NCBI GenBank assembly: GCA_030374765.1
Contig: JARGXX010000086.1
Span: 682,001 to 746,000, forward strand
Direction: 5' to 3'
Source: Agarophyton chilense
Taxonomy: Eukaryota; Rhodophyta; Florideophyceae; Gracilariales; Gracilariaceae
DNA: 64,000 bases
Positions 45,363-64,000 of the stretch are shown piece by piece. The notes beneath the pieces are model-generated. The model ran no database searches. It saw only the letters and a program-made list of their open reading frames with translations, and was not told where the DNA came from. The translations under genes were made by a program, and so were the position numbers. How positions within the stretch are numbered: the stretch's first letter is position 1; every line of letters begins with the position of its first letter.

Positions 45363-46415
45363 GAACGCTAAGTGTTGATTGTAGCAACATGTGAGGAGAA
45401 ACTGGGAAGCGCGAGCCAAATTATTCGTTTGATTGTCGTGGAGGGTGCGTGGTGGATAGCTCTGCTCGTGGTCTGCAATGTAGGCTCTGCAATGTAGGCT
45501 CTGCAATGTGGTTTGTTGTTCTGATCTGAATAGCATCGTATATTCGCAATCGCTTGACGCGTGTAATATTCAGTTCTAAAAGTGCTCAAGCATTTGCAAG
45601 CCGAATGACACCGGGGGGGGGGGGGGCTCGTGTGGTGCCCAAGAATGGTGGTATGCATTGGCGGAGTCGCGAGTGGTGGATTAGGTGCGCATTGCTCACC
45701 TGCGCGAGTTAGGCACGTGCGGGCCGGTAGACGCAGGTGGACACGAGAGTTGTGGGGCGGGGAGGAGGGGTTTTCTCTGCGGGGAAGAAAAATGTTGTTT
45801 TGAGGGAGACGCGGAACGTGGGCAAGGGAAGACAAGGAGCGAATGCGGAGCTTTCGGTGGCGGGAGGGTAGCGTTGTAGCGCGAAGAGGAGAAAGATAAG
45901 TGCTTGCGGAACGGGACGGTTGCGCGCGGGGTAGATAGTAGCCCTTGGTGGTAAGATGTAAACTTGCCAGAAAGATCCGTTAGCGCGACGGCGACGGCCA
46001 AGAAGCGTGGTAGGGAGCGTCGAACGCACAAGACGGGCGATGCGCGCTGACTTGTCGTTGGCACGCTGGCACGGTGTCATTGGCGAGTGCCGCGCAGCCG
46101 CGCAGCCGCGCCTGCCGTCAGTGCTGACACGCCGCCTGTGACGTCATGGCATGGCCGTCTCACAGCGCGCTCTCTCGAACGTTGCGACTCGCACCTGGCG
46201 ACGACGCGATGTTGTGCACCACGCGGTGGCTCCTCGTTCCAAAACGCTCAACACTCGCGACTTATGCGCCCGTCGCTTTGATAACGGTCCCCGCTTCTCA
46301 CCATCCGCCCGCCCCCCGCCCCTCGAAAGCCACTCGCGGTACCACCGGCCTCCCCATTTAGGCGCGTGAGGCGGCGTTGTGGCGTCTGTGCTACGCGCCC
46401 GCGCGCCGCTTGCAG
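45363..46415. other. Intergenic region
   Basis: About 1.05 kb between PARP and the first six-TM gene, both on the + strand. Contains a run of 13-14 G near 45,612-45,626 and the 14-bp repeat listed separately. No gene recognised. Confidence 0.4.
45472..45510 (+). repeat. 14-bp tandem repeat, about 2.8 copies
   Basis: TCTGCAATGTAGGC occurs twice exactly and a third time in part (TCTGCAATGTGG), 110 bp after the PARP stop. Confidence 0.9.
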
Positions 46416-47231
46416 ATGACTCCCATGGCTTCTGCTACGCCACATGCGCCCGACCGCTTGCCGCCGCCGCCCCGCTTCTGGGGCCCGTTTCGTCCGGTGT
46501 TTGGCGGCCACACTCTGTTTGAGGCGGCCACTTCGTGCTTTCTGCCCACGTTTGTTGTGTTTTTGTGGCGCTTTTTGTTCGCGTGCTTCTTGGTTACCAT
46601 TTTGGTCACCTACGCTGTCATGGGCATCAACGTTTACAGATTCGAGTCGTTTGGCGTGTGGGTGCATATCGGCTTGGCGCTGTCCTTCTTCTTGCTCTCC
46701 ATGTGCTCGTTCCTCTTCCTGGTGCAGAAGGAGCATCCGCCGCTCTCTTCTCCTCTGGCGTGCCTTTCCGTCGTTTTGCATCAAATGTTTGCCACGTCCG
46801 TGGTGTTTTTCGCCGCTGCATACTGGGCGTTCCTGCGCGATTATTCGAAACACATTCACATGGCGGAGCTGGTTCAGAACGCAGCCAATGTGGCCATGGT
46901 GCTCATTGACCTCCTGCTCGCGCTGCGCATCCAGTTCAAGCTGGTGTATTGTCTGTGCTTTGTGTCATTCGCTGTAACGTATCTCATTTTCGTGTGGGTG
47001 CGCTTTGCAATCATCAATGATTTCGTGTACGACTTTCTCGACTATCGAACGCACGCAAAGGGTATCACCGTGGCACACTACCTCGGGGGCTTGGCGTGGG
47101 CTATACTGGCCTCTTTCGGAGTCTTTTTGATATCGCGGCTCAGCCGACTGCCTTGTGTCAAGGATCGCTCCACTTATTCGAAGGAAGGATCACCGGCATC
47201 TCACCTGAATCGATATTTTGCGTTTGTGTAA
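46416..47231 (+). CDS. Six-TM membrane protein A (lineage family, tentatively Rolling-stone/AIG1-like)
   Basis: 271 aa from ATG 46,416. A Pro-rich N-terminus (RLPPPPRFWGPFRPVFGG) is followed by about six hydrophobic helices near 44-68, 78-100, 117-135, 150-170, 173-195 and 222-243. The family signature is in helices 4-5: NAANVAMVLIDLLLALRIQF then KLVYCLCFVSFAVTYLIFVW. The same order N/H-x-x-N...D-LLS/LAL..(F)..L-Y is found in proteins B, C and D of this array. It resembles the organisation of Rolling-stone and AIG1/FAR-17a membrane proteins, but this is a weak resemblance. Function unknown; the C-terminus is short and cytosolic-looking. Confidence 0.72.
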   Translation: MTPMASATPHAPDRLPPPPRFWGPFRPVFGGHTLFEAATSCFLPTFVVFLWRFLFACFLVTILVTYAVMGINVYRFESFGVWVHIGLALSFFLLSMCSFLFLVQKEHPPLSSPLACLSVVLHQMFATSVVFFAAAYWAFLRDYSKHIHMAELVQNAANVAMVLIDLLLALRIQFKLVYCLCFVSFAVTYLIFVWVRFAIINDFVYDFLDYRTHAKGITVAHYLGGLAWAILASFGVFLISRLSRLPCVKDRSTYSKEGSPASHLNRYFAFV

Positions 47232-49995
47232 CTTGGAGAACGTGCGCGTACTTTGGCTGCTTTGCACCAGAACATGCATGTTGTTTGGTTGACACTGTAC
47301 GACACTGCTGAATGCGTTTTTCAACTGGCAACAGCCTTATCTCAACAGATACAAGAAGACGACGCGCAGTCGCAGAGACACGAGCTCCGGCGTGTAGTAA
47401 GCTCGAGGACGATTGGCCATTGCGTACACTGGCATTGCGCGCATTAGCATTGCGTGCACAAGCATTGAATGCACAAGCATTGAATGCACTGGCAATGCGC
47501 CGAGCGCTCGCCATGAGCAAGTGACTCAGTTGGTAACTTAATGATGTACGGCGAGCACGCGTCGGTACATGTCCGCGAGGTTGAGAGCCGGTGTATGTAG
47601 AAGGCGTTGTGCGACAGATATCAATTTGATCGCGCTCTGCGAGACTGTAATTACTACTGTAAAGAGCGATGCGTGCTCGCTCCATCGACTCGGACAAAAG
47701 TTGTGGAAGCAATCCTACCATTGAAACGCTTTGTGTGTTTTGATACTCCCACGGTAAGTCAACCTTACGCTCTCCGTATAAAGCATCCCTCACGCGCGGT
47801 TGTCACAATCGACGCCGCGGACAGACACTCGGACCCGGATTACAGCTGTATGTTTACTGGCCCGCCCAGCTTCTTGGCGTTGAGGCACAGTCAGCAGCAT
47901 ACAGTTACTTGGTCGTGGGCGTCGTAGATACGCTATAAAAGCCATGTGGTGCTTCAAATCATCGCTTCGATGAGTATCTGCCAGCTACAAAATCTTATTT
48001 TGCAGTCGTGCAGCACACTCGCACACAGAAACTACCTTACTACCTCCAACGTCGCTCTAGAAACACAATTCCCGTAACGTGTTTTATACTCTTTGCTGCA
48101 AGTCGCAAAACTCATGTCCAAACCGCACAAACAAAAACTGTTCTCCATTGCTCGAAAACTTGTTGGTGTGCTTCAAAAATGTATCAAGCCTCAAGTGATG
48201 AGGTCACGCGTTGGCGTGTCTGCTCCGCATGTCAGCTGATCTTTAATAATCTACTTTTAGAAAGCCACCACTTTTTGCAAACGTTGTGTTTCCACTGTCT
48301 GTTTCTGCAACCCTTTGCACGTGAGCTGTTGACGATGAAACAACTTTGTATGCACCTCGTTGTATGTGCACACTCTGTCTGCCTCAAAGCATGCAAATCC
48401 ATTGTATCAATATCATGTCCAAGCTGAGAGAAATGCGTACCTGCGCTTTTTTATATGTCGAGCGGCAAGCTTGTTGATAGTCCTATGGACACGATTAATA
48501 CTGTCGGCATACAGTACACAAGCGCTGCAGTTACCAACTTAAAAACTCCACGGTGAACGCCGTCGGTGTCTGAGAAATCTTCAAACCTTGTGGCGGGCGC
48601 GCTTCAAAAGTTGAGTTTGAAGCCCCCCGCCGTTTTCGTTGATGCTGTGCATAGTGACCACGTAAAGTATGTAAATGTATGTACTACTTGTAGCAACATA
48701 TGTAAAGATACCACGCCTTGAACACGTATCGTTCCATTATTTTAATCACTTCAAGCTTTTGCACCATCTTTCGTGCATTGGTGCCACCACTGTCGCAGCC
48801 GCTTGCAGCTTTTCCTCGCCGTCTCCAGGCGCCGCGCGAAAGCACGTCGAGTAACTTCACTACGATACGTCAAGTTACCGCGCTGTCGGGCCGTCGCGGA
48901 GATTGCCAATGCCGACGTCTTTTTTTTTTTTTTTTCTTTTTTCGCGTTCGTTTATATTACACCGGTGTGGTACTTTCCCTTCGCAACGTGTGAGGGGTTT
49001 TTTTTTGGGCCCGACATCATGTCGGTGTGTTCAAGAATACAAGAAAAACGATGAAAAGAGAAGACACCGGTGCTGGTCAGTTTTTTTGTCCCCTGCACCA
49101 GGTGTTGGTATGATAAGCTCAAGTTGAGATGCGTGCGGTGCTGAGCTGAAACATTTTGTCATCCCTAACAGACGTTGATTATGTTTCAACTGCTTGCTGT
49201 GCACTACGCTCGGGGTGAAACCAATGGCGGGCAACTTTTCGATATTGTCATCGAAACTACGAAGGGTACAACATGTGCAATCCCAATCTACGCTGAAAGA
49301 GAAAACCATCCTCGCCGGTTGTTGGTGATCAGCATTTGTTATCTCTCCGCGGCTCCATTAAACATAGGCTGTGTGTTCGTGAGCCAAACTCACGCGAGTC
49401 GCGAGACGCACAACTATTAATGAACAGCACGTGTGATAAACGCTGCGATGGATGTTGAAGGGAAGCAAAATGGAAGCCACATGAAAAAAACATATCACGT
49501 GGGCTCTTCCGACTGCGGTGGTACGGATTTTTGGTTGCTGGAGCGGGGGATGTACTTGTCGGGGCTCAGAAAGCGAGCTGAGTGATAATTGTTCATGCAT
49601 GGCGGATCTGTTGTGCCTGCGAGGCTCTGCGTCAGTGTGAGATGTGGAAAACAGGAAGAAAAAAGTGCGGATCGCGAGGCAGCGTATGAGAAGACGTTGG
49701 GTATGTACTCTTTAAGGATGACATAAATGGACGGCAAGGACAGTGTTTGACATGAAGTTGCACATGTGGAAAAAGTATGATCTCTCAAGTGCATGCGGGG
49801 CTTGGTCAAAAACCAAAAGCCGAACGATGATGTGGCGCTCCCTGTAGCTAGCCAGCTAGCCAGCGAAGACTTAGAGAAAGCGCAGCCAAACAGTGCATCT
49901 CCCCAAACGCCACCTTCAGCACGCCATCGGTGTAAACCACGCGCGCCTCCACAGTCGCTCACAATTCAACGTATTCACACACACACACACACACA
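47232..49995. other. Gene-poor spacer between membrane-protein genes A and B
   Basis: 2.76 kb without a recognisable gene. Near 47,420-47,510 there are short imperfect repeats of GCATTGAATGCACAA/GCATTGCGCGCATTA type. A T-rich tract lies at about 48,919-48,947 and a (CA)n run at 49,977-49,994 immediately before the next ATG. Confidence 0.5.
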
Positions 49996-52032
49996 ATGGC
50001 ACGCACGCGCATCACGCGCACGGCGCGGGTGCGCACCGTCAGCCTCCCACTTGCGACCCCGCGCGCACACGCGGCGGGTGCTCACTTGGCGTGCGCGCGC
50101 GCCTTGCACGCGCCCCAACCCAATCGTTGTGCGACAAGTCAGTCATTCCCGGATCTGTGCGCTACGTGCCACTACAGCGTCGCTGTCGTTCAATTGTGGC
50201 GCCTTCTCAACACACTCTCTCGCATAACGTCATCACTGTCGCTGCTTTCGTTCCACTCCCATCCTCGACTTGTCGCTCGCGCGTCTTGCTGGCTCATGCC
50301 CTCAACGTCAACGTCTTCCCCGCCTGCTGCCATGCTCCCGCCGCCACGCTTCCCGCCAACCGTACCGTCAAAGCCGCTAGTCGTCGCGCCCCCCCTCCCC
50401 CTCTCTCATGCCAGCTTTGTTGAACAACCCACGGCTCCGCCCTTGTCCACCGTCGCTTCGTCGCGTCCCATTTCCTCCCCCCCGTCCTTGCCAGACATGA
50501 TCGCCTCCTCTGACTCAGAGTCCGTACATTCTGCCTCGCCCACCACGCATCCCCATCTCTTTCGAGCCCCGCTGCTGTTCCAGCCACATGCGTTTACCGA
50601 AGCCTCGCGTTCCGTCTGTCTTCCGCTTTCAGTACTTCTTCTCTTGCGTCTCTTTCCTGTCGCCTCCCTCGTCGGTCATCTCGTCTTCTTTTCGCTGCAC
50701 GCCGATTTCAACTTCACCGAGTATCTAACTTGGAACTACTTTGCTCTCACTCTCGCCTTGTTGCTCGCCCTAACCTGTTCCCTCCTGGACGTCATACACG
50801 ACCATCCCGATCAACAAGACAACGAATCACAAGAGTTTCCTACCTTGGCAGAACACAACAAAGCCGATGACGTCGAACGTCAATCCCGAATCGCCACACC
50901 GTCCTCCCAACCCAAGTGGCTTCTCTTCTTAACTCGCCTCACCGTTCCAGCGTACCAACTAGCCGTGTCTGCCACAATCTTCGGCGCTGTCGTTTTCTGG
51001 GCTGCTGTCTACCCCAATGCCACCATTCCACTCACTTATGCACTCCTCGCCCAGGCTGTCGCCGCCCCAGCCATTGCCATCGTCGACTTTTTTCTTTCTT
51101 TCCACATGAATTTCCGTCTCATCTACATATTCCTCTACATCTTGTACAATGCAGCTTACGTTGCTGTTGCCTACACTCTCACAGAACGTGCCTATATTTT
51201 CGTTTTTCTTCGTCGCGATGCGAGCCGCAGTGCCTTTGCCGCAAAAGCTGCAGGTTTGGCTGCCGCTTGCTTGTTCACTGCTGTTCTACTCTACTTCATT
51301 ACTGCGCTACGCTCTCTGCGTTCGACCAGGTCTCTACCAGATGCTATTTCCGCCAGGAGCAAGTCGAAGCGCATTCTGGAAGACCGCCCCGAATCTGCTT
51401 CGCGTTCCGCCGCATCTTCGCATTCACACCATTCTGACCTTTCTCAACTTGGCCTCCGTCGCATCCCCAGCAACTCTTTCTACGACAGTGCTGAGTTCGT
51501 GCACGTCGAAAATGAAGATCAAATAGACCAATCCACGTCCTTGTCCGCCCGAGACCGTGCATCTGTCCCTATTGACCTTGGTGGTGGTAGTTCCGGGCGC
51601 AGTTCTTGGTTCCGAGCCTCAAGCGCTCGCTTGACTGCAACTCTTTCGGGGGGCAGTGCGGGTGAAGCTCGTCCTGGTTTTGCAAGGACTAGCTCTTCAT
51701 CAAGTGTTTGGGAGGATATGGACCAGCCAGCGCCACAAAAAGAAGACGAGGTGTTCTCTATGCCCGCGTGCTACAATGCGACAAAACAGCATGAGCTGGC
51801 CAGAATGTCGCAAGTGCCACGGATAGACTCTGCCAAACAACTGCCAAGACTTGTTTCCCGACAGGCGTCTGGCAGGTTTTCACGAACTAGTTCGACAAGT
51901 AGCGCACGTCTTGGCCCCGCTCCCCACTTGCCTTCTTCCGCCATTACTGCATCCATGTTCGTGCGAAACGGTAGTGCTCACTACTCAACGGACAGAACAA
52001 ACCGGGAAGGTGGTGGTGCCGAAACTCGATGA
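49996..52032 (+). CDS. Six-TM membrane protein B with long N- and C-terminal tails
   Basis: 678 aa from the first ATG (49,996); ATGs at 50,296 (578 aa) and 50,332 are equally plausible, and the first 100 residues look unconstrained. Predicted helices include VCLPLSVLLLLRLFPVASLV, WNYFALTLALLLALTCSLL, WLLFLTRLTVPAYQLAV, AVAAPAIAIVDFFLSFHMNF, LIYIFLYILYNAAYVAVAY and AAGLAAACLFTAVLLYFITA. The IVDFFLSFHMNFRLIY segment aligns with FVDFFLSLRMGFQLAY of protein C, establishing common descent. A 240-residue Ser/Arg/Asp-rich C-terminal tail with SRTSSTSSARLG-type clusters looks phosphorylatable and cytosolic. Function unknown. Confidence 0.75.
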   Translation: MARTRITRTARVRTVSLPLATPRAHAAGAHLACARALHAPQPNRCATSQSFPDLCATCHYSVAVVQLWRLLNTLSRITSSLSLLSFHSHPRLVARASCWLMPSTSTSSPPAAMLPPPRFPPTVPSKPLVVAPPLPLSHASFVEQPTAPPLSTVASSRPISSPPSLPDMIASSDSESVHSASPTTHPHLFRAPLLFQPHAFTEASRSVCLPLSVLLLLRLFPVASLVGHLVFFSLHADFNFTEYLTWNYFALTLALLLALTCSLLDVIHDHPDQQDNESQEFPTLAEHNKADDVERQSRIATPSSQPKWLLFLTRLTVPAYQLAVSATIFGAVVFWAAVYPNATIPLTYALLAQAVAAPAIAIVDFFLSFHMNFRLIYIFLYILYNAAYVAVAYTLTERAYIFVFLRRDASRSAFAAKAAGLAAACLFTAVLLYFITALRSLRSTRSLPDAISARSKSKRILEDRPESASRSAASSHSHHSDLSQLGLRRIPSNSFYDSAEFVHVENEDQIDQSTSLSARDRASVPIDLGGGSSGRSSWFRASSARLTATLSGGSAGEARPGFARTSSSSSVWEDMDQPAPQKEDEVFSMPACYNATKQHELARMSQVPRIDSAKQLPRLVSRQASGRFSRTSSTSSARLGPAPHLPSSAITASMFVRNGSAHYSTDRTNREGGGAETR

Positions 52033-52906
52033 CGGTTCTCTGCCTTCCAGGCCAGTTTTCATTATCGTTGTTTTCTGCAAGGTCAAGGGGACAGCCGCCC
52101 CACTAAGACGTTCATGGTTGAACAACGTGCCTCCTCATGATTGCGATTTCCTCATTGATCCAAGCAAAGGGTGACCCATTTTTTTCGATATCCGCAACTT
52201 CACCCGGTGGTTTGGTCCCACAGCCTGATTCCTACCAACGTTTTTCACATGCGCTCGGTATCGAAATGGTCCGATGTTGAATTCTTTTTTGTGGTCTGAT
52301 TACGCAACAAACAACATGTTGCGAGCGTGGTCATCATTTTTGCTAATACCTTTTAGAGCCCTGCCCGTTCGTAGATTTTCCAAGATTTACCGGGAACCCC
52401 GAGGAGCCTGTTTGGTGTTTGGCCCATTAGAAATCCCATGGACTATTATTCTGCCTTGCAGTAAAAAGAGCTACAACTCCGAAGTCTCCATGTAATCTTC
52501 GCATTTGTCAAAGTTTTGCAGACTTAAGAACTGTGTGTCATGAATAGCAAGAGCGCTAGATGAAACATGAGCCAACCTCTAATTCTGCACAACTCCTCTA
52601 CAGAATGTTTAATGTGCCGGGGATGTAGCTAGCCTAACCCGGAGCTTTTACGTCGTGTTTGGGCATGTTACTCTGAACTAATCAACTGGTAGAATGTTTA
52701 TGTGGGCTTCATGCAGCGGTGCTTTGGATTTGTATTCAACAAAGGTTCATCATCTAAGAATTCTGCCCAGACAGAGGCGACCGTAACTCGCCCTCGGACA
52801 AACATACATTATATTTGCAACAGGTTCAAATACAGGGCATGGGCTGCACAGAGAATGTGCATGTACTCAACAATAATGTTTTACCATATTGTCCCGGAGT
52901 TTCCCA
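52033..52906. other. Intergenic region
   Basis: 874 bp between protein B and the left edge of the direct duplication. No gene or repeat seen. Confidence 0.4.
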
Positions 52907-54740
52907 TCAGATTCTAGCTGGTTCGTTTCGATTGCAATTTTGTTCAACAAATAGTCACCGTCCCCCCACCACGACTTTGTTCCTTGTTCCACTGATAATC
53001 TCCTTCTCATATTCGTCATCTCCAGGCTTCAAACGTCCAAGTACTAAAGTTCGGTTTGTTCGGGTTCTTGACCGTTCTGGTTCAAGACCGATTTAGTTCT
53101 TGACCGTTAGGAGAAACGAGATGGAAATCATCCAAATACCTCCCAGTGCTCTACGCCATGGAGAAGAACTGCAAAACAAACGGTCATCTCCACCACCCTC
53201 GATGCGAACGCTCGAGTCAACCAAAAGTGCATTTCAATCCACTAGCAGCTCGTTTCAGTCTCAAGATTTTGCACGCAAACATCAGCTGGAAACTCGCGTG
53301 TTGGCACCGGATAATCCATTTCCTACTTACAAGTCTCACACTCTGTCGGAAGCAGGAGGCTCCGTTTGGGTGTCTTCGCGTGTGATTCTCCTTTGGCGGT
53401 TATGTTGCACATGGCTTTTTGTATTTACTCTCGGATTGCTCGCGCCGAGTGGACAATTCAATTACGGATGGTTCAGCACATGGATATATTTGGGAGTAAC
53501 TTGCACAATGATTCTCGCGACTTTCAGTTCATTGCTGTATCACTTGTACCCAGAACAATCGTCTTCAATCATGTCTGGGCGATGGTCCTTCCCACTCTTG
53601 GCCAATTCCACTGTTTGCACGTACCAAGTATTTCTATCACTCTCTGCGGGAGCAGATCTTGTGTACTGGCTTTTGCTTCAAGAGAGGGAAGGGATGGTAA
53701 TCCCGCGCGTACTTGTCCATGCGGTCAATTTTCTTCTTCTCTTTGTAGATTTCTTTCTCTCGTTGCGGATGGGGTTTCAGCTTGCCTATGTGTTTGTCGC
53801 GGTTGCTTTCGTCACCGCATGGCTTCTTTTCGCATGGATTCGGTACGCAGTGACCAGGGATTGGATACATCGTGTTCTGGATTTCAGAATTGTTGGAGGA
53901 GCTCGAGCGGCAAAAGCTCACGTCGCAATTATTTTCGCAATCCTTGTCTCTGGCATATTGTTTCTCCTTCTAAATCGCTTGAACCGAATAAACTTTATAT
54001 CCCGAAGGATAAAAGCACTTATCGCCGACGAACTTCAAGTAACTGGCGAATCCGTCTTGACGGACGAAGAAAACCCCAAAGAAAAAAATCTCGATGACGT
54101 CCTCATCGAAACAAAAAACCCGAATGATTCAGTGATACAAATAGAATGTTTTACGCCGTGAGGTGATTCTCAGTGCTTGGGCCCAGTCTTCCTTGTTGCA
54201 CATAACTATCTTTTAACATGTACAAATACGTAAAATCTGGGTTGTCTTGAAATCTGCCTAGGGCCATGTTTAGCAAGTTAAGGAGAGATGTAACGCAATC
54301 GACTGGATTGCAGTCAATTGGAATTCTGGATTGCTCTCTGGCAAACAACTAGAAATCAGAACAATTCGATGAAGACAATCATCACGTCAGCTTGTGTCGC
54401 CACAACTGCATATTCAGAACCGAAGAGCTTTATTCGTGCTAATAGGCAGAAGGAATGACATTACGTTTGTTCAGAACTAGAATAGTTTCCTGAACACGGA
54501 TGACTGGAGCTTCAAAGACCTGTTGGTTTTCGGCTGTTCCAAAAGTTGAAGATTGCAATCGAGAAACAGCGCCAAGCAAGTCAACAACGAATTTGCGTTC
54601 CTTTACAAGATTGGAGCTCAAATCGCACTCCCATCGCCTTCACAATGGTTTTATCCCTTCGGCTCATTCAGAATTGTTAATTACTTGATGATTAGCCTGG
54701 TGCAATACGAAGTGGAGTCACGAAAGCAGCCGTGCATTTG
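52907..54740 (+). repeat. Direct duplication, left copy (about 1.83 kb)
   Basis: This segment recurs in the same orientation at 59,871-61,711. Homology begins at GAGTTTCCCATCAG and ends at CGTGCATTTG. The 5' leader part (52,907-53,120) differs at many positions. The coding part is closer. The last 580 bp (54,161-54,740) differ at only about three positions. It carries the intact six-TM gene C. Confidence 0.93.
53121..54161 (+). CDS. Six-TM membrane protein C (intact copy)
   Basis: 346 aa from ATG 53,121. A hydrophilic N-terminus of about 80 residues precedes WVSSRVILLWRLCCTWLFVF, WIYLGVTCTMILATFSSLL, STVCTYQVFLSLSAGADLVY, VHAVNFLLLFVDFFLSLRMG, LAYVFVAVAFVTAWLLFAWI and VAIIFAILVSGILFLLLNRL, six hydrophobic helices. 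The tail is charged (RRIKALIADELQVTGES). It belongs with proteins A and B, sharing the HAVN..FVDFFLSL block and helix order. A duplicate at 60,094-61,132 is decayed, so this is the functional copy if either is. A membrane role is clear; substrate or partner unknown. Confidence 0.78.
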   Translation: MEIIQIPPSALRHGEELQNKRSSPPPSMRTLESTKSAFQSTSSSFQSQDFARKHQLETRVLAPDNPFPTYKSHTLSEAGGSVWVSSRVILLWRLCCTWLFVFTLGLLAPSGQFNYGWFSTWIYLGVTCTMILATFSSLLYHLYPEQSSSIMSGRWSFPLLANSTVCTYQVFLSLSAGADLVYWLLLQEREGMVIPRVLVHAVNFLLLFVDFFLSLRMGFQLAYVFVAVAFVTAWLLFAWIRYAVTRDWIHRVLDFRIVGGARAAKAHVAIIFAILVSGILFLLLNRLNRINFISRRIKALIADELQVTGESVLTDEENPKEKNLDDVLIETKNPNDSVIQIECFTP

Positions 54741-54930
54741 GGTACAAAGATTAATGGTGATGCGTTTACAAGATACTTGACAAAACTACCACTAATGAAT
54801 ATCAAGAGATAGAACGCAGAGAAGAGCTTTAATTGGAGAAGCTTCCTCCGTCTTCCGTGTCTCAATACTATCCTTTGTTGAAACGAACTTCGACAAATGG
54901 AATAAACTGCGCTGGCTTTTCATTTCTGGC

Positions 54931-56445
54931 CTAACTTGAAAGTCTGCATCGCTCAAAGACCTTATACAGACGTGACGTTGTAGTTATTTCTCTCAAGACT
55001 CGTTCAGTAAGAAATTTTTTCGGAGGGTGGTAGTTGCTGCGCATAGCGGAAAACAGTACATGGCGAATAACCCAATTTCGCCCTTGACTCTCGTTTTCAG
55101 CCTTCAAAGACTTCCAGGACTCATCATCAGGGGGAAATTCGTTATCGGTTCCGCACGGCCAATCTGGACTTTCACGCTCTGAGAGACTTAACATGGGATT
55201 CCAATGACTGCCGTACCATTCTCCAAAGGCCTCTGAAACACACCGAAAACACCGCTCCTCTTCATTCCAGTCTGTGTCTACAGCAAGATGATATAAAAAA
55301 GAGCCCAAGAAGCGAAGGTCAGGCAGCACATTGGGAATGATCTGGGGCAGCGTTTTTAAGTGGAGGGTTTGCGGGGTATCTCCTTCCGTGGAGAGAGAAT
55401 AATACTCTGATAACATGGGACCCTTTCCAGTAGTACCATGGCACAGGACTCTGCGTTAATTCTTCGAGTGATTAAGCACTCTGGATTGGTTGACAGATAA
55501 TTGGTTAACAGCTTCATGATTGGCGCCGGGGGTTTCAGAGTAAATGCTTCCATATCTGCAAATCGAATCAAGGTCTGCTGATATATCAGTTGCCTCAGTA
55601 GGGATGGCACATCTGCCATCAGCAATTTTGTTTCATATTGCAACAGAACAAATCTCTCCGAGGCTACACCGACAAATTGGTGTTCTCGCAAAATCTCACA
55701 GAGACCTGAATGTGAATCTCTCTTAACCTTGTCTAACAGATTATCAACGGAAGTCAAGAGAGGTTCTGCATCAGGTCGCCGACGGCGGCTGGCCTGGATT
55801 CCAATCGCTGCATTCTTTGCTTCTTGAGTAGCAAGAAACACGTCGTAGAGACCAACCGGAGCGTTTGAGCCTGTTCTAATCTTGTCTTTAGCATGTTTAT
55901 GTCTAGAAGACTTCTCTTTTCATTCAGTAATATGAGTATTGCTCTGTAGCATAAGATAGGTTTGGCTCCGCTTTCGTTTTGAGAGCGGTCGCGGAGGCAT
56001 ATCATCTTTTGCAATTAGTTCCCTGGATACCCCTCCATTGGCACTTTTATCTATCATAAGTTGAGGGTCCCCATTTGAAGCAGTTCCTCCACTTTCTATA
56101 CGGCGATTTGACTTACAAACGGAACTCTGTTTCGCCCATATAACGTGGTTTTGATCTTGCGGCGTAGTACGTGCACGGTCTGAGTCTGAATTAGGAACAC
56201 TACCTTCTCCGTGTATGGGTTTAATACCAAATCCAGAGCCCGTGGATTGCGCAGAAGGCAGAGTCTGCGTTGAAAACATCCGGGAGCATTCTGCAAGCTT
56301 TAGTTCTTTGCTCAAAGCTTCAACAACTGCCCCTACGATAGAAATTTCGTGAAGAAAACGGACCTCTTTCTTGGTGGGGTGCACGTTCACATCAATACTG
56401 TATCTTTCTGGTCCATATTTAGATCGGATGCAAAGACGCCCCGAA
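54931..56445 (-). pseudogene. MLH1: MLH1 mismatch-repair gene, 5'-truncated pseudogene
   Basis: The minus strand encodes the C-terminal two thirds of MLH1. It starts inside the MutL fold at [19 protein letters not shown], then LTSVDNLL..CEILREHQFVGVASERF, LLRQLIYQQTLIRFADMEAF, a second frame with LPDLRFLGSFLYHLAVDTDW, ESQGRNWVIRHVLFSAMRSN and the end LYKVFERC. The whole ATPase domain (about 250 residues with the GHKL motifs) is missing upstream. The frame is broken by an in-frame TGA near 55,918-55,920 and by a one-base shift near 55,430, and the FERC end, normally terminal, carries four extra residues. The break lies beside an alternating CGCG/CACG tract near 56,463-56,488. It is a decayed fragment; a working MLH1 must exist elsewhere if the species has one. 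Confidence 0.9.
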
Positions 56446-57061
56446 CGGGGCCAGCGCCACGCGTTGCACGCGCGCACGCGCGCGCAGTCGTTTCAAAAGA
56501 GGACCGATGCCCGGTAACACTGCGTACGCCCACGGCTCTCTGCGAACTATCATCCTCGACACATGGACGCAGCGACTGCGAACTGTCAACAATCTTGGTC
56601 ACTTTCAGGCGCTCGCAACCCATCCAAATGTTGCTACCACAGCCTATCTTGATTCTCTGCTTCATTCAATTTCATCTCTTCCCGCTCTGCGACGTTCCTA
56701 TGACAAATTAGCCCGCCTTGCCAACATAACTCAAGACTGGTAGTCAATGCGCCTGCAAAAATCTTTCTGTGTCTCATATGAGCTGCAACCTCCGACTCAA
56801 TCGCAGCCGAGCACCCATTAATCTCAACTCCTTTCAACCCCATTGCTATCAACCTCTCCTTCTGTTCCCTCATTATTTGTAGCTGGGACTTAATGCCATA
56901 GTTTCCCAACAAGTTTCACTACATCCTCGGTACAATGCTCAGAACTGGTCCGCCCACGCATTGCAGTCACAAATGGTGCGTGAGCTGCAGCAAGTCCACA
57001 GAATCAGCTCAACCAGCATAGCATTACTTGGAAGAGTTGCAATAGTGTAATGAACAAGAAC
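56446..57061. other. Region between MLH1 fragment and Uma2 unit
   Basis: About 616 bp. Begins with an alternating purine-pyrimidine CGCGCACGCGCG tract near 56,463-56,488. A 78-codon frame at 56,507-56,743 (+) and an overlapping minus frame show no family. The left edge of the inverted unit lies near 57,062, but the exact end cannot be set because its partner runs to the end of the window. Confidence 0.45.
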
Positions 57062-57242
57062 GACAATTGAGTCTTTACTCCGTGCGGGTGAACCTAGTTC
57101 TAAATTTGTGCGTTCTTGGGTTTGATCTTCTGGTACCGTTGAGATAAGCAATACAATCAGACCTCTTAATGAAACACAAACAAATGGGCCCAAAAATGTC
57201 ACAACAAAGCATATCTAATGATTGTGTAGTCCAAAACTGTGT

Positions 57243-58460
57243 TCAGTGTCTCCGTTGTAGACGTTTGGACTTCTTTTTCTTTGGACTGTTTGTGGGGCTT
57301 GCACTCGAGCTTCCACTGGAGTTGCTCAAGCTCACATTAGGGTATTCTTTCTTCACCTTTTCCTTGAGCCTTCTGTGCTTGGACGTTCCACTTTTCAATT
57401 CCAAACGCATCTGTTCTATCTCTGCGTCTTTTGAACGGCGCAGCTCTTCCTTCTCTGCGTCTTTCGAAGCCAGCGCTGCGTCTTTCGAACGGCGCAGCTC
57501 TTCCTTCTCTGCGTCTTTTGAACGACGCAGCTCTTCCTTCTCTGCGTCTTTTGAACGAAGTAGCTCTTCCTTCTCTGCGTCTTTTGAACGACGCAGCTCT
57601 TCCTTCTCTGCGTCTTTCGAAGCCAGCGCTGCGTCTTTAGAACGGAAAGAGGATGCGAGATCATCAAGCGTTTTTGACGGATCCGGTTTGAACAGATCCT
57701 TGGGCCTGTGATCGCCACAAGGACCAAGATCAACAGATTCTTCTCCACGGAATACGCGGTTGGGATAATATTTACCTGTCTCCCGATTCATTTTGTATAC
57801 TTCAACGCGTGGATCGCGTTTCTTTTCGTCATCACAGGTGGTATCTCTATTCACGATGACGAACTGGTTAACACCTGCTCGTTCATACTCGCGTACTTTG
57901 ATCACAGTGTCGGTGGTCTCGTTCTTGCTGGTAACTTCAACAACAGTTTCCGGAGGTCTACCGAGAGGGTGAGTGACTTTTTGGGAGTTGGGAGAGAGTT
58001 GAAGTCTTTCTGCTTGCGTCAACAAGCGACCAGTGCTAATATCCGGCCTTCTCACACGTCTTCGACGCGGAGAGCGCGACGAAGATGGAGACTCTGGTGG
58101 AATAGCAGTTCCTGCCTGTAGAAAGGGTATTTGTGATGTCTTTCCTTCGACATATCGAGTATGAACCGAGGCCTGCATCATGTGGCTTATTTCATCGTGA
58201 TGATCATCGGCCATCGGTAGTGCAACAAGAAGGCCGTCCACGTACTCATACAAGCCAAACACAGAAGGATCGACGTTGAAGTATTCTTCCAGTGAGCAAG
58301 GCGTCAGGTGCAGTGCTCCCAGTTTGTTGTCTAGGGGAAGCTTTGGGGATGCGCTAGGCTGGGGGTTCGCCGAAAACGGGGCTGCTTGAGGGTTGGAATC
58401 GTCGCTCAGAGCTGAGTCCGGCGGGGACGGAGGTGGGGGGATGCGCGACGAATAAGACAT
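57243..58460 (-). CDS. Uma2-family (DUF820) PD-(D/E)XK nuclease-like protein, left copy
   Basis: 405 aa from ATG 58,458-58,460. After a Pro/Ser-rich start, residues about 52-240 follow the Uma2 layout: TPCSLEEYFNVD, YEYVDGLLVALPMADDHHDE, the acidic motif RRPDIS, PPETVVEVTSKNETTDTVIK with VREYERAGVNQFVIVNR, then VEVYKMNRETGKYY. The Asp of RRPD, the Glu of VVEV and the following Lys are candidate active-site residues of the PD-(D/E)XK fold. A C-terminal coiled region follows, built of 11-residue SKDAEKEELRR repeats, then a Ser/Lys-rich basic tail (SPKKKKSKRLQRR), a possible nuclear signal. Uma2 proteins are abundant in cyanobacteria and some other bacteria; a eukaryotic copy with repeats suggests ancient transfer followed by amplification. 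Substrate unknown. Confidence 0.85.
   Translation of the reverse strand: MSYSSRIPPPPSPPDSALSDDSNPQAAPFSANPQPSASPKLPLDNKLGALHLTPCSLEEYFNVDPSVFGLYEYVDGLLVALPMADDHHDEISHMMQASVHTRYVEGKTSQIPFLQAGTAIPPESPSSSRSPRRRRVRRPDISTGRLLTQAERLQLSPNSQKVTHPLGRPPETVVEVTSKNETTDTVIKVREYERAGVNQFVIVNRDTTCDDEKKRDPRVEVYKMNRETGKYYPNRVFRGEESVDLGPCGDHRPKDLFKPDPSKTLDDLASSFRSKDAALASKDAEKEELRRSKDAEKEELLRSKDAEKEELRRSKDAEKEELRRSKDAALASKDAEKEELRRSKDAEIEQMRLELKSGTSKHRRLKEKVKKEYPNVSLSNSSGSSSASPTNSPKKKKSKRLQRRH
57418..57650 (-). repeat. 33-bp coding minisatellite, left Uma2 copy
   Basis: Tandem 33-bp units encode SKDAEKEELRR; two units have a shortened SKDAALA form. Unit number and order differ from the right copy by one unit and by the position of the ALA variant. 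Confidence 0.93.
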
Positions 58461-58734
58461 GGTGAACCTTGACGTGGCTCTTGAGCGCTACGGTAGAGGT
58501 GCGAGAAGCGAGTGGTCATTCCCCTCCGCAGCGGAGTAGGTTACCAGGAGGGAGAATGGTCAAAGGATTCGTGAGTTCAGCGCAGGTTTGGCACTATGAT
58601 TGTCTCGAGGTTGATGGAAAACAAAGGCGCGGCGTTGGAACCATCCGCGGTGGTTGAATTCAGCTTTGACGAAAACAGGCGTAATCTTGCAACGGAAGCG
58701 GAAGCGCTGACTTCGCATTGTTCCAGGATCCAAT

Positions 58735-58778
58735 CAAAGCAAGTGCGAAGCGCGCAAGTGCGAAGCGCGCTTGCTTTG
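58735..58778. repeat. Hairpin with internal 15-bp tandem repeat upstream of Uma2 (left)
   Basis: CAAAGCAAG (58,735-58,743) and CTTGCTTTG (58,770-58,778) are exact reverse complements. Between and overlapping them GCAAGTGCGAAGCGC is repeated twice (58,739-58,753 and 58,754-58,768). The same structure is kept at 62,250-62,293 in the right copy, about 280 bp before the Uma2 ATG. Confidence 0.88.
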
Positions 58779-59315
58779 CGCTGGATTCTAACAACTGTTG
58801 AGCAAAAATTTCAGCGAAGCTGCCTTTCGTCTCCTCGCCGGCTCCCACCTCACTCCACATTATGATACACCGCCTCGTCTTCTTCGTCGTTGACGCCGTG
58901 CCGCCATATCTAACGACTTCTGTTTCCATCGCTTGCGCTACAGCGCCGGCTAAGGGCATCTCCGTTCCACTCAACGCTCCGCCTGCACGCAATACCGCTC
59001 AATCAGTCTTCTCTCGCGCGCGCAACTCTCGCGCCTAGGAGCCGCTATCCGGCAAAGAGCCGCCGCCAGTACTCGCTTACCTCTTTAGAGCACGTGAGGG
59101 GACCTTTCCTCATGATCATGATAATTGGCATACCGCATCTGCGTACGATTCCAATTGTGCGGGGCTGTAAGCCTCGCAACAGCTCACGTCCATCGTCAGC
59201 GAAAGCACGGCATGAGATGCACAGAGACACTGCTTTTCTGATCGACAACGCGCGAGTGCGATTGAGTCTGAAATTGTGAACTGCTCGTTCCCTTGCAGCA
59301 TCGGGCATAATTTGG

Positions 59316-59870
59316 CAGGAGGACTCGTATCCGCAGGGCACTGAAAGCGAATCGAAGGAAGCAGGTTTCCACGTGACGTAGGGTGGCGTACGTGCAAACC
59401 GCATTCATGGCAAGCGCCAAGGGGTGTGTGATTTGAACGGTTCACACAATCTCGATCGGAACGCGTGTGGAAAGATTTGACAGCGACAGCGTGCTTCACA
59501 TGTTCCGACACACCAGCAACTGGTTGGATGTTGAGTTGCGCACACTCCGAGTGTGGCGGCGACGCGTTGGAGTTGTGGACTTGTGCCGTATGGTCTCAGG
59601 AGCGTGGCCGTGTGGCACATCTTCCTGTCGCCGCCTGTAAATGAGCTGCTTGGGTGGCTCCCGTGCGAACCGATGCATTCAACCATGCATTCGGCCATGA
59701 ATACAGAACTGTGCTTGCTACAGCTATCGTACCCGCACTGGCCTCCAACGCCAATTCATCTCCCATCGCATTGCTCATGAGCCTGCTCATCTCATGAGCA
59801 CGCTCAACCGCAATTCTAACAAGCTGCAGCATCTTTTTCATGGACTGAATACATACACGCTCCTGAAACC
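59316..59870. other. Single-copy spacer between the two duplications
   Basis: 555 bp between the inner edge of the left Uma2 unit and the right copy of the direct duplication. An 81-codon minus-strand frame (59,596-59,841) with an amphipathic start (MKKMLQLVRIAVERAHEM) is present but has no recognised relative. Confidence 0.4.
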
Positions 59871-61711
59871 GAGTTTCCCATCAGATTCTAGCTGGCTCGT
59901 TTCGCTTGCAATATTGTTCAACAAATAGTCGCCCTCCCCCCACCACGACTTTGTTCCTTGTTCTACTGACAACCTCATTCTCATATTTGTCATCTCCATG
60001 CTTTCATGTCCAAGTACTAAAGTTCGGTTTGTTCGGGTTCCTGACCGTTCTGGTTGTAGACTGATTTAGTTCTTTACCGTTAGGATAAACGCGATGGAAA
60101 TCATCCAAATACCTCCCAGTGCTCTACGTCATGGAGAAGAACTGCAAAACAACGGTCATCTCCAGTACCCTCGATGCGAACGCTGAGTCCACTAAAAGTG
60201 CATTTCAATCCACTAGCAGGTCTTTTCAGTCTCAAGATTCGGCACGTAAACATCAGCTGGAAACTCGCGTGTTGGCACCGGATAATCCATTTCCTACTTT
60301 CAAGTCTCACACTCTGTCGGAAGCAGGAGGCTCCGTTTGGGTGTCTTCGCGCGTGATTCTCCTTTGGCGATTATGTTGCACATGCCTTTTTGTATTTACT
60401 CTCGGATTGCTCGCGCCGAGTGGACAATTCAATTACGGATGGTTCATCACATGGATATATTTGGGTGTAACTAGCACAATGATTCTCGCGACTATCAGTT
60501 CATTGCTGTATCGCTTGTACCCGGAACAATCGTCTTCAATCATGTCTGGGCGATGGTCCTTCCCACTCTTGGCCAATTCCACTGTTTGCACGTACCAACT
60601 ATTTCTATCACTCTCTACGGGAGCAGATCTTGCGTTCTAGCTTTTGCTTCAAGAGAGGGAAGGGATGATAATGCCGCGCGTACTTGTCCACGCGGTCAAT
60701 TTTCTTCTTCTCTTTGTGGATTTCTTTCTCTCGTTGCGGATGGGGTTTCAGCTTGCTTATGTGCTTGTCGCGATTGCTTTCATCACTGCATGGCTCCTTT
60801 TCGCACGAATTCGGTACGCAGTGACCAGGGACTGGGGACATCGTGTTTTGGATTTCACAATTGTTGGAGGAGCTCGAGCGGCAAAAGCTCACGTCGCAAT
60901 TATTTTCGCAATCCTTGTCTCTGGCGTATTGTTTCTCCTTCTAAATCGCTTGAACCGAATAAACTTTATATTCCGAAGGATAAAAGCACTTATCGCCGAC
61001 GAACTTCAAGTAACTGGCGAATCCAACTTGAAGGACGAAGTTAATCCCAAAGAAAAAAATCTTGATGACGTCCTCATCAAAACAAAAAACCCGAATGATT
61101 CAGTGATACAAATAGAATGTTTTACGCCGTGAGGTGATTCTCAGTGCTTGGGCCCAGTCTTCCTTGTTGCACATAACTATCTTTTAACATGTACAAATAC
61201 GTAAAATCTGGGTTGTCTTGAAATATGCCTAGGGCCATGTTTAGCAAGTTAAGGAGAGATGTAACGCAATCGACTGGATTGCAGTCAATTGGAATTCTGG
61301 ATTGCTCTCTGGCAAACAACTAGAAATCAGAACAATTCGATGAAGACAATCATCACGTCAGCTTGTGTCGCCACAACTGCATATTCAGAACCGAAGAGCT
61401 TTATTCGTGCTAATAGGCAGAAGGAATGACATTACGTTTGTTCAGAACTAGAATAGTTTCCTGAACACGGATGACTGGAGCTTCAAAGACCTGTTGGTTT
61501 TCGGCTGTTCCAAAAGTTGAAGATTGCAATCGAGAAACAGCGCCAAGCAAGTCAACAACGAATTTGCGTTCCTTTACAAGATTGGAGCTCAAATCGCACT
61601 CCCATCGCCTTCACAATGGTTTTATCCCTTCGGCTCATTCAGAATTGTTAATTACTTGATGATTAGCCTGGTGCAACGCGAAGTGGAGTCACGAAAGCAG
61701 CCGTGCATTTG
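59871..61711 (+). repeat. Direct duplication, right copy (about 1.84 kb)
   Basis: Second copy of 52,907-54,740. Its right edge at 61,711 is exactly where the right Uma2 unit begins, so one event joined or cut both. Carries the decayed six-TM gene D. Confidence 0.93.
60094..61132 (+). pseudogene. Six-TM membrane protein D (decayed copy of C)
   Basis: Aligned with gene C, this copy keeps the ATG (60,094) but has lost one base near 60,149 and another near 60,184, which moves the frame. It also has an in-frame TAG near 60,639-60,641, where C has Tyr-Trp after GADLV. Downstream the helices (VHAVNFLLLFVDFFLSLRMG onward) and the stop are preserved. Three lesions in about 1 kb with otherwise close identity indicate a young pseudogene. 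A shortened product from an internal ATG (60,648) cannot be excluded but would lack half the membrane helices. Confidence 0.88.
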
Positions 61712-62249
61712 TCAAATTATGCCCAATGCCGCAAGCGAACGAGCGGTTCACAATTTCAGACACACTCGAACTCGGGCGTTGTCGATCAGCAAAGGAGTGT
61801 CTCTGTGCATCTTACGTCGTGCTTTCGCTGACGATGGACGTGAGCTGATGCGAGGCTTTCAGCTCCGCACAATTGGGATTGTACGCAGATGCGCGTATGC
61901 CAATTATCATGATCACGAGGAAAGGTCCCGTCACGTGATCTTGAGAGGCAAGCGAGTATTGGCGCCGGCTCTCTACCGGATAGAGACTCTTAGGCGCAAA
62001 AGTTGCGCGTGCGAGAGAAGACTGATTGAGCGGTATTGCGTGCAGGCGGAGCGTTGAGTGGAACGGAGATGCCCTTAGCCGGCGCTGTAGCGCAAGCGAT
62101 GGAAGCAAAAGTCGTTAGACATGGCGGCACGGCGTCAACGACGAAGAAGACGAGGCGGTGTATCATAATGTGGAGTGAGGTGGGAGCCGGCGAGGAGACG
62201 AAAGGCAGCTTCGCTGAAATTTTTGCTCAACAGTTGTTAGAATCCAGCG

Positions 62250-62293
62250 CAAAGCAAGCGCGCTTCGCACTTGCGCGCTTCGCACTTGCTTTG
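62250..62293. repeat. Hairpin with internal tandem repeat upstream of Uma2 (right)
   Basis: Counterpart of 58,735-58,778: arms CAAAGCAAG (62,250-62,258) and CTTGCTTTG (62,285-62,293) around the doubled 15-bp motif. Confidence 0.88.
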
Positions 62294-62567
62294 ATTGGAT
62301 CCTGGAACAATGCGAAGTCAGCGCTTCCGCTTCCGTTGCAAGATTACGCCTGTTTTCGTCAAAGCTGAATTCAACCACCGCGGATGGTTCCAACGCCGCG
62401 CCTTTGTTTTCCATCAACCTCGAGACAATCATAGTGCCAAACCTGCGCTGAACTCACGAATCCTTTGACCATTCTCCCTCCTGGTAACCTACTCCGCTGC
62501 GGAGGGGAATGACCACTCGCTTCTCGCACCTCTACCGTAGCGCTCAAGAGCCACGTCAAGGTTCACC

Positions 62568-63818
62568 ATGTCTTATTCGTCGCGCATCCCCCCACCTCCG
62601 TCCCCGCCGGACTCAGCTCTGAGCGACGATTCCAACCCTCAAGCAGCCCCGTTTTCGGCGAACCCCCAGCCTAGCGCATCCCCAAAGCTTCCCCTAGACA
62701 ACAAACTGGGAGCACTGCACCTGACGCCTTGCTCACTGGAAGAATACTTCAACGTCGATCCTTCTGTGTTTGGCTTGTATGAGTACGTGGACGGCCTTCT
62801 TGTTGCACTACCGATGGCCGATGATCATCACGATGAAATAAGCCACATGATGCAGGCCTCGGTTCATACTCGATATGTCGAAGGAAAGACATCACAAATA
62901 CCCTTTCTACAGGCAGGAACTGCTATTCCACCAGAGTCTCCATCTTCGTCGCGCTCTCCGCGTCGAAGACGTGTGAGAAGGCCGGATATTAGCACTGGTC
63001 GCTTGTTGACGCAAGCAGAAAGACTTCAACTCTCTCCCAACTCCCAAAAAGTCACTCACCCTCTCGGTAGACCTCCGGAAACTGTTGTTGAAGTTACCAG
63101 CAAGAACGAGACCACCGACACTGTGATCAAAGTACGCGAGTATGAACGAGCAGGTGTTAACCAGTTCGTCATCGTGAATAGAGATACCACCTGTGATGAC
63201 GAAAAGAAACGCGATCCACGCGTTGAAGTATACAAAATGAATCGGGAGACAGGTAAATATTATCCCAAACGCGTATTCCGTGGAGAAGAATCTGTTGATC
63301 TTGGTCCTTGTGGCGATCACAGGCCCAAGGATCTGTTCAAACCGGATCCGTCAAAAACGCTTGATGATCTCGCATCCTCTTTCCGTTCTAAAGACGCAGC
63401 GCTGGCTTCGAAAGACGCAGAGAAGGAAGAGCTGCGTCGTTCAAAAGACGCAGAGAAGGAAGAGCTACTTCGTTCAAAAGACGCAGAGAAGGAAGAGCTG
63501 CGTCGTTCAAAAGACGCAGAGAAGGAAGAGCTGCGTCGTTCAAAAGACGCAGAGAAGGAAGAGCTGCGTCGTTCAAAAGACGCAGAGAAGGAAGAGCTGC
63601 GCCGTTCAAAAGACGCAGCGCTGGCTTCGAAAGACGCAGAGATAGAACAGATGCGTTTGGAATTGAAAAGTGGAACGTCCAAGCACAGAAGGCTCAGGGA
63701 AAAGGTGAAGAAAGAATACCCTAATATGAGCTTGAGCAACTCCAGTGGAAGTTCGAGTGCAAGCCCCACAAACAGTCCAAAGAAAAAGATGTCCAAACGT
63801 CTACAACGGAGACACTGA
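62568..63818 (+). CDS. Uma2-family (DUF820) PD-(D/E)XK nuclease-like protein, right copy
   Basis: 416 aa from ATG 62,568. The nuclease-like part (residues 1-230) is identical to the left copy, with YEYVDGLLVALP, RRPDIS and VVEVTSKN intact. A first difference is Asn to Lys in GKYYPKRVF. The repeat region has one more 11-residue SKDAEKEELRR unit and a different arrangement of the ALA variant. The tail differs at three residues (for example SPKKKMSKR). Both copies therefore have complete frames, unlike the neighbouring six-TM duplicate, suggesting selection, very recent copying or conversion. A smaller 99-codon ATG frame (62,069-62,368) upstream is kept in both copies but is not clearly a gene. 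Confidence 0.85.
   Translation: MSYSSRIPPPPSPPDSALSDDSNPQAAPFSANPQPSASPKLPLDNKLGALHLTPCSLEEYFNVDPSVFGLYEYVDGLLVALPMADDHHDEISHMMQASVHTRYVEGKTSQIPFLQAGTAIPPESPSSSRSPRRRRVRRPDISTGRLLTQAERLQLSPNSQKVTHPLGRPPETVVEVTSKNETTDTVIKVREYERAGVNQFVIVNRDTTCDDEKKRDPRVEVYKMNRETGKYYPKRVFRGEESVDLGPCGDHRPKDLFKPDPSKTLDDLASSFRSKDAALASKDAEKEELRRSKDAEKEELLRSKDAEKEELRRSKDAEKEELRRSKDAEKEELRRSKDAEKEELRRSKDAALASKDAEIEQMRLELKSGTSKHRRLREKVKKEYPNMSLSNSSGSSSASPTNSPKKKMSKRLQRRH
63390..63650 (+). repeat. 33-bp coding minisatellite, right Uma2 copy
   Basis: Seven or so 33-bp units, mostly exact, encode SKDAEKEELRR; one unit longer than in the left copy. Confidence 0.93.
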
Positions 63819-64000
63819 ACACAGTTTTGGACTCCACAAACATTAGATATGCTTTGTTGTGACATTTTTGAGCCCATTTGTTTGTGTTTCAATACGTCCT
63901 TTTACGTTGTTTGTCTCCGCGATACCAGGAGATCAACCCCGAGAACACCCAAATTTAAAACTAGGTTCACCCATACGGAGTAAAGACGCAATTGTCAACC

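Follow-up and report, generated by a model that had tools for sequence, protein, structure and literature searches.

The window analysed here is a stretch of 64,000 nucleotides from the nuclear genome of the red alga Agarophyton chilense (C86:682001-746000; C-numbers designate the contigs of this 79.8-Mb genome, 135 contigs). It contains two open Uma2 genes in inverted orientation, which most probably lie on immobile inner fragments of a PIF/Harbinger DNA transposon and were spread by duplication of a chromosomal block; we attribute to this reading a probability of about 0.8. That a Harbinger element carried the Uma2 gene appears highly probable to us. The parent transposon, of ~7 kb, contains the genes for a DDE_Tnp_4 transposase and for Uma2, followed by a third, convergent gene designated ORF3. 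An original prediction, made from the letters of the window, had suggested that the gene could be a captured nuclease and that the inverted pair was a candidate new mobile element, possibly non-classical. The first idea fits a gene carried inside a mobile element. Of the second, mobilization of the gene is retained, within a classical PIF/Harbinger transposon, but the inverted unit itself is neither a new nor a non-classical element.

The two complete genes had been located at 57062-63996, and the algorithm blastn reproduces these outer coordinates exactly, 57062-59317 matching 61710-63996 at 95%. The central inverted arms (57476-59133 and 61895-63552, 1658 nt) are 99% complementary and a further pair of arms is found at 57167-57435 and 63626-63894. 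The unit size of 2.25 kb first given has to be revised, as the homologous stretch of copy A covers the whole of fragment A (Table 1) and copy B is truncated, at 61710 on one side and at 63996 on the other. Fragment A matches C96:431308-434067, C75:62172-64700 and C109. The window fragments, of ~3 kb, come from the inner part of the transposon and contain only the part matching C75:62172-64700 and a right part similar to C96 and C109. Neither of them has terminal repeats or a transposase, and by themselves they do not qualify as PIF/Harbinger elements.

Both proteins belong to the Uma2 family, as had been predicted, with Pfam Uma2 (PF05685) scores of 50.4 bits for copy A (E 2.4e-13) and 51.4 bits for copy B (E 1.2e-13), the gathering cut-off being 27 bits. 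The NCBIfam profile search gave no match named Uma2. Copy A displays successively a Pro/Ser-rich N-terminus, the Uma2 domain (residues 71-245), a charged coiled coil encoded by 33-base repeats and a Ser-rich basic tail. Copy B has the same architecture with 33 additional bases, corresponding to one 11-residue repeat. This architecture is common to the nine aligned members of the family (9/9), the repeat stretch being short in two of them. The number of 33-base repeats (57405-57642 and 63383-63656 in the window) varies among near-identical copies and accounts for most of the range of protein lengths. The residues Asp140 and Glu175 are invariant in the nine aligned proteins and Lys188 is conserved in eight; we take these three residues to be the catalytic residues of a putative PD-(D/E)XK nuclease. 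The best restriction-type sequence match in the PDB, annotated as "putative restriction endonuclease domain-containing protein", is weak (E 0.25). No bacterial Uma2 relative was present at E 1e-3 among the matches listed in protein searches of limited reach, and scans with one and two short peptide patterns detected no bacterial or viral relative.

The gene had been thought to be amplified, and the genome indeed contains more than two copies. The 541-base stretch upstream of Uma2 has 20 places, comprising eight young copies (99-100% identity) and 12 older copies (81-91%). The Uma2 frame is open in all eight young copies, and most of the older ones contain stops or frame breaks. The PF05685 profile gave 17 matches over the genome, 16 of them above the cut-off, with C16 and C71 among the poor ones; such six-frame counts are lower bounds. 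These numbers greatly exceed a chance resemblance. The predicted conserved hairpin had been given no coordinates and was taken as the palindromic stretch of Table 1. It rests on a 15-nt duplication that occurs in the three young copies aligned and is absent from the five older ones aligned. In the seven young copies containing it, the end piece of fragment A (59608-59870) has the opposite orientation to that seen in the 12 older copies with this piece.

The young copies are embedded in the same surroundings. The host stretch S, which carries a membrane-protein gene, is joined to the sequence of fragment A in the seven young copies that carry both (7/8 young copies). S has eight places in the genome, and only the one at window positions 52897-54740 has no Uma2 at that junction. 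Past S, six young copies run into the same piece of the mismatch-repair gene MLH1, which in five copies (C36, C41, C69 and twice in C70) ends at the identical base in the same insertion. The ends of this insertion are TG..CA and it is accompanied by a CATAT duplication; the opposite side of the insertion was read in four of the five copies and in C86b. On the right, a flank of 1155 bases is identical (100%, rounded) in six young copies. Such shared neighbours on the left and on the right show that a larger chromosomal block, which includes the membrane-protein gene and the MLH1 piece, was duplicated. The young copies, including those of the window, were thus multiplied by segmental duplication and not by transposition. 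Window copy A does not have the shared right flank, and copy B is truncated as indicated above. The TG..CA insertion, also seen in C86, looks from its sequence like a long terminal repeat (LTR) retrotransposon. The two C70 blocks are ~55 kb apart and perhaps belong to a tandem repeat of very large size. A circular permutation seen in the C70 block was considered as a rolling-circle or episome insertion, and this interpretation was dropped in view of junctions with TG..CA ends and the CATAT duplication.

The parent element was delimited from the older copies and from their relatives. The element C75:60295-67288 interrupts a second repeat: the flanks of the element are contiguous in a related repeat at C111:1328109-1328951 (77-83% identity). 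The junctions are ..cgTAA followed by GGGGCTGTG on the left and GACTGCCC followed by TAAAGGG on the right, where the uninterrupted relative reads ..cgTAAGGG. A sister element at C92, of ~7.26 kb, is bordered by a clean TAA/TAA duplication (TATAA then AGGGCTGTCC; GACTGCCCT then TAATG). Its terminal inverted repeats, AGGGCTGTCCATAG and AGGGCAGTCTACGG, are alike at 10 of 14 positions. According to a portion of PMC4482050, TWA duplications characterize PIF/Harbinger among the elements of the PHIS superfamily. In C96 and C97, TAA precedes the left end. The left ends of C75, C92, C96, C97 and C111 start together within a few bases, with the sequence AGGGC, GGGGC or TGGTC, and their flanks (100-124 bases) have no match to one another. 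The left flank of C62 is that of C111 at 98%, so that these two loci represent the same insertion, duplicated. Compared with itself, the C75 element gave no match at E 1e-3 in either direct or inverted orientation and therefore has no long terminal direct repeats.

Concerning the gene content, the ORF located just inside the left end of C97 encodes a DDE_Tnp_4 domain (Pfam, E 2.6e-24), and broken relatives of this transposase are present at C75, C96, C111, C62 and C112. DDE sequence lies 1.4-6.2 kb from Uma2 sequence at C75, C96, C97 (a 5' remnant), C111 (two cases) and C62. For a random point of the genome, the probability of having one of the 150 listed transposase matches at a distance of up to 4-8 kb is 1.5-3%. 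ORF3 is convergent to the transposase at many loci of the genome and is found past Uma2 at C75, C96, C111, C88 and C97. The family-1 Uma2 gene (the window type) is placed between the transposase and ORF3 at C75 and C96. C62 and its duplicates have the transposase and Uma2, with no ORF3 match; C88 has Uma2 and ORF3, with no transposase match; C109 has Uma2 and adjoining Harbinger backbone only. From this gene content, all five independent older loci (C75, C96, C109, C88 and the group C62/C111/C112/C113) adjoin Harbinger sequence.

Several observations weigh against this reconstruction. An element both complete and open, comprising transposase, Uma2 and ORF3, was not found in the genome, the older copies being decayed. 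A clean TWA duplication is seen only at C92, which has no Uma2 match, and at no element holding Uma2. At C75 the duplication is unclean: when aligned to the last base of C92, the right side is AAA against TAA on the left, and it reads TAA only if the equivalent of the last C92 base is taken as lost. C111 is ambiguous, with TTAA at both junctions fitting a TTA or a TAA duplication, and the right end of C96 is absent from the 501 bases read there. No DDE match was found near the older loci C109 and C88, and at C111:1326k only a 3' part of Uma2 lies between the transposase and ORF3. Finally, ORF3 has no Pfam match and thus no recognized Myb/SANT domain.

Carriage by a Harbinger is the strong step of our explanation, and the role of Uma2 is its weakest one. 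In this Harbinger lineage, Uma2 probably represents an old accessory gene, comparable to YqaJ in the ISL2EU transposons, because Harbinger sequence adjoins five of the five independent older loci and the genome search revealed no free donor gene, that is to say no family-1 copy free of Harbinger origin. That Uma2 serves the element as an accessory nuclease is a serious possibility, to which we give a little less than even odds. In such a scheme, Uma2 would have entered the Harbinger lineage long ago and been kept as an accessory nuclease. The transposase, with ORF3 as a possible DNA-binding partner, would cut and paste the element. The coiled coil would hold Uma2 as an oligomer and the basic tail would draw it to DNA, where this predicted nuclease might trim or nick donor or repair intermediates.

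A comparable chance must be given to another view of this role, in which a red-algal Uma2 host gene would have been taken up on a single occasion within the inner part of a gene-capturing Harbinger, to be carried since then as a functionless passenger. C75 and C97 share four matching pieces between C75:60289 and 66642. At the place of the C75 Uma2 (C75:62782-64722), C97 has a 2.1-kb stretch containing an ORF with a diacylglycerol-kinase catalytic domain (DAGK, E 1.1e-18), as expected of a cargo site. This kinase piece (L051:3841-4653) is apparently a captured piece of a host gene, judging from its sequence; part of it matches C88:889864-890107 at 95%, the likely source. In a Harbinger of C22, a piece resembling a bromodomain was detected, with a score under the Pfam cut-off. 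The nearest sister elements gave no Uma2 match (C92, C10, C95, C71, C21, C68, C99, C13 and C86:252k), and the family therefore does not depend on this gene. The sisters stop matching the Uma2 elements either ~220 bases past the transposase (C10, C92, C95 twice, C71, C21 and C68:3673k) or ~900 bases past it (C68:2110k, C99, C86:252k and C13). Uma2 therefore lies in sequence that the sisters do not have. The state preceding Uma2 was sought with 401 bases across the match end of a C68 sister, and nothing useful was matched beyond ~40 bases.

Selection is also at issue. Along branches from the vote of copies, omega is 0.95-1.49 for C75, C96, C88, C62 and C109; the two window copies, with 14-15 changes, have values of 0.75 and 0.83. 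In pairwise comparisons of window copy B with the older copies, it is 0.66-1.23. These estimates carry no significance test and are not decisive; from the sequences, the decayed copies look neutral and family 1 displays no clear selection after insertion. These features, like the C97 kinase piece and the sisters with no Uma2 match, tell against an accessory function. The predicted structures, with a mean predicted local distance difference test (pLDDT) value of only 55.4 and 50.6, are too poor to confirm the nuclease fold. A passenger is countered by the lack of any free family-1 host copy found as donor and by the age of family 1, which is old by midpoint rooting (with long branches and no outside root), yet has young copies that are open with the active-site residues kept. 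At such an age, open frames and kept residues are hardly expected of a useless passenger.

More distant Uma2 relatives, 31-42% identical, were detected in C22 (four), C33 and C4 (two), with fragments in C93. The protein of a C4 copy is identical, over 375 of 375 residues, to a database protein labelled Agarophyton chilense. In the tree of these proteins, family 1 falls outside families 2 and 4, for which relatives occur in further species of Gracilariaceae. When the tree is rooted at its midpoint, family 1 separates earlier than the divergence between the A. chilense and G. domingensis members of family 2; this tree has some long branches and no outgroup. Family 3 (C33) has a DDE relic ~0.7 kb from Uma2, and no terminal-repeat pair could be picked there among many short inverted repeats. 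Two ORFs near the C33 gene (L057:7790-8797 and 8866-9423) resemble, by eye, bacterial homocysteine methyltransferase and GNAT genes. A second Uma2-Harbinger family was considered at C22, where ORF3 lies beside one Uma2 copy. This ORF3 was taken as part of a neighbouring element, because homology with the other C22 copies starts ~250 bases past it; the end of that neighbouring element was not located.

Families 2 and 4 may represent ordinary host genes of bacterial origin that were duplicated and are close to transposons by accident only, since other species have relatives of them (Gracilariopsis chorda in the case of family 4) and none of the listed DDE matches lies less than 6 kb from the four loci of C22 or the two loci of C4. 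For family 1 this explanation is very unlikely, given the same transposase/Uma2/third-gene order at several loci and the insertion of C75 into another repeat. Least probable, and to our mind hardly credible, is that the 2.25-kb inverted unit is a separate element centred on Uma2, homing-type or non-classical: it is multicopy with an open ORF and shared flanks, but its copies have no clean common ends or target-site duplications, the young ones share long neighbours, and the older ones adjoin Harbinger with homology running past the unit. No sign of homing was seen, and no test aimed at homing was made.

The Uma2-bearing Harbinger shares with other PIF/Harbinger elements of the PHIS superfamily the DDE_Tnp_4 domain, the TWA site, short terminal inverted repeats and a second convergent gene. 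It differs from them by the additional Uma2 gene between the two usual ones and by an ORF3 in which Pfam recognizes no Myb/SANT domain. ISL2EU has a transposase of a related DDE group, and its second ORF carries a YqaJ exonuclease domain (in a part of PMC4482050). Our element does not belong to ISL2EU, which is characterized by an AT duplication and a YqaJ gene, whereas here the site is TWA and the nuclease is Uma2, encoded by a third gene. KolobokP and KolobokD are also DDD/E transposons with an added nuclease gene, of the His-Me and DEDDh types respectively (excerpt of PMC9587614). They represent another superfamily with other nuclease folds, and C75 has no long terminal direct repeats. With bacterial Uma2/DUF820 proteins, the algal ones share the Pfam domain and the residues D..ExT..K; unlike them, they have a long N-terminus, a coiled coil and a basic tail and are encoded in a red-algal nuclear genome. 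Fanzor, a bacterial-type TnpB-like protein in eukaryotic transposons, is a parallel from another protein family (PMC3627910). Added TET/JBP and SET genes are carried by Harbingers elsewhere, as a passage of PMC12730594 indicates, and the functions of extra ORFs in such DNA transposons were given as unknown in 2015 (same portion of PMC4482050).

Nuclease-carrying transposons are thus known, and none was found described with a Uma2-type nuclease: in the open-licence literature, searched by title or abstract opening and with Repbase outside that search, no Uma2-bearing transposon appears. A second nuclease of a different kind occurs in several groups of eukaryotic DNA transposons, to which the Uma2 Harbinger would add an independent red-algal case. 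The broadest proposal, held tentatively and with the odds leaning against it, is that a Harbinger lineage recruited a bacterial-type Uma2 into its transposition machinery, independently repeating the cases of ISL2EU-YqaJ and KolobokP; the open window copies would be that nuclease, stranded, amplified and free for adoption by the host. Such carriage would provide a path for a bacterial-type nuclease gene to multiply in a eukaryotic nucleus, and the window offers open nuclease copies accessible to direct testing.

Table 1. Features of the window discussed in the text, in window positions.
Feature	Position	Strand	Description
Uma2 gene copy A	57243-58460	-	405 aa; open reading frame and PF05685 match
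Uma2 gene copy B	62568-63818	+	416 aa; open reading frame and PF05685 match
Fragment A	56892-59870	-	inner Harbinger piece, between transposase and third gene
Fragment B	61710-63996	+	shorter, inverted copy of the same inner Harbinger piece, cut at both ends
End piece of fragment A	59608-59870	.	263 bases
S1 host stretch	52897-54740	+	open 353-aa multi-transmembrane (TM) gene at 53100-54161
S2, copy of S1	59871-61709	+	95.7% identity; TM gene broken into two frames
MLH1 mismatch-repair gene piece	54741-56424	-	frame-broken in the window
Repeat R piece	56425-56891	.	unrelated interspersed repeat adjoining fragment A
Palindromic stretch	58736-58785	.	rests on a 15-base duplication

S2 is located between Uma2 copies A and B. 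The multi-TM gene inside the duplicated S is the third of a local row of paralogues on the + strand (46362-47228, 49936-52029 and 53100-54161), whose three proteins are 23-28% identical (best E 1e-22) and have no Pfam match. The MLH1 C-terminal domain is present at seven places: one in an 801-aa open frame, on the same contig as the window (C86:1385037-1385849), five in 356-aa frames, and the frame-broken window piece. Another Harbinger family, at C22, C6, C25, C88, C33 and C135, has transposase frames of 438 aa and 570-aa ORF3 copies that are 95-98% identical to the ORF3 of C22; from these sequences, it looks recently active.

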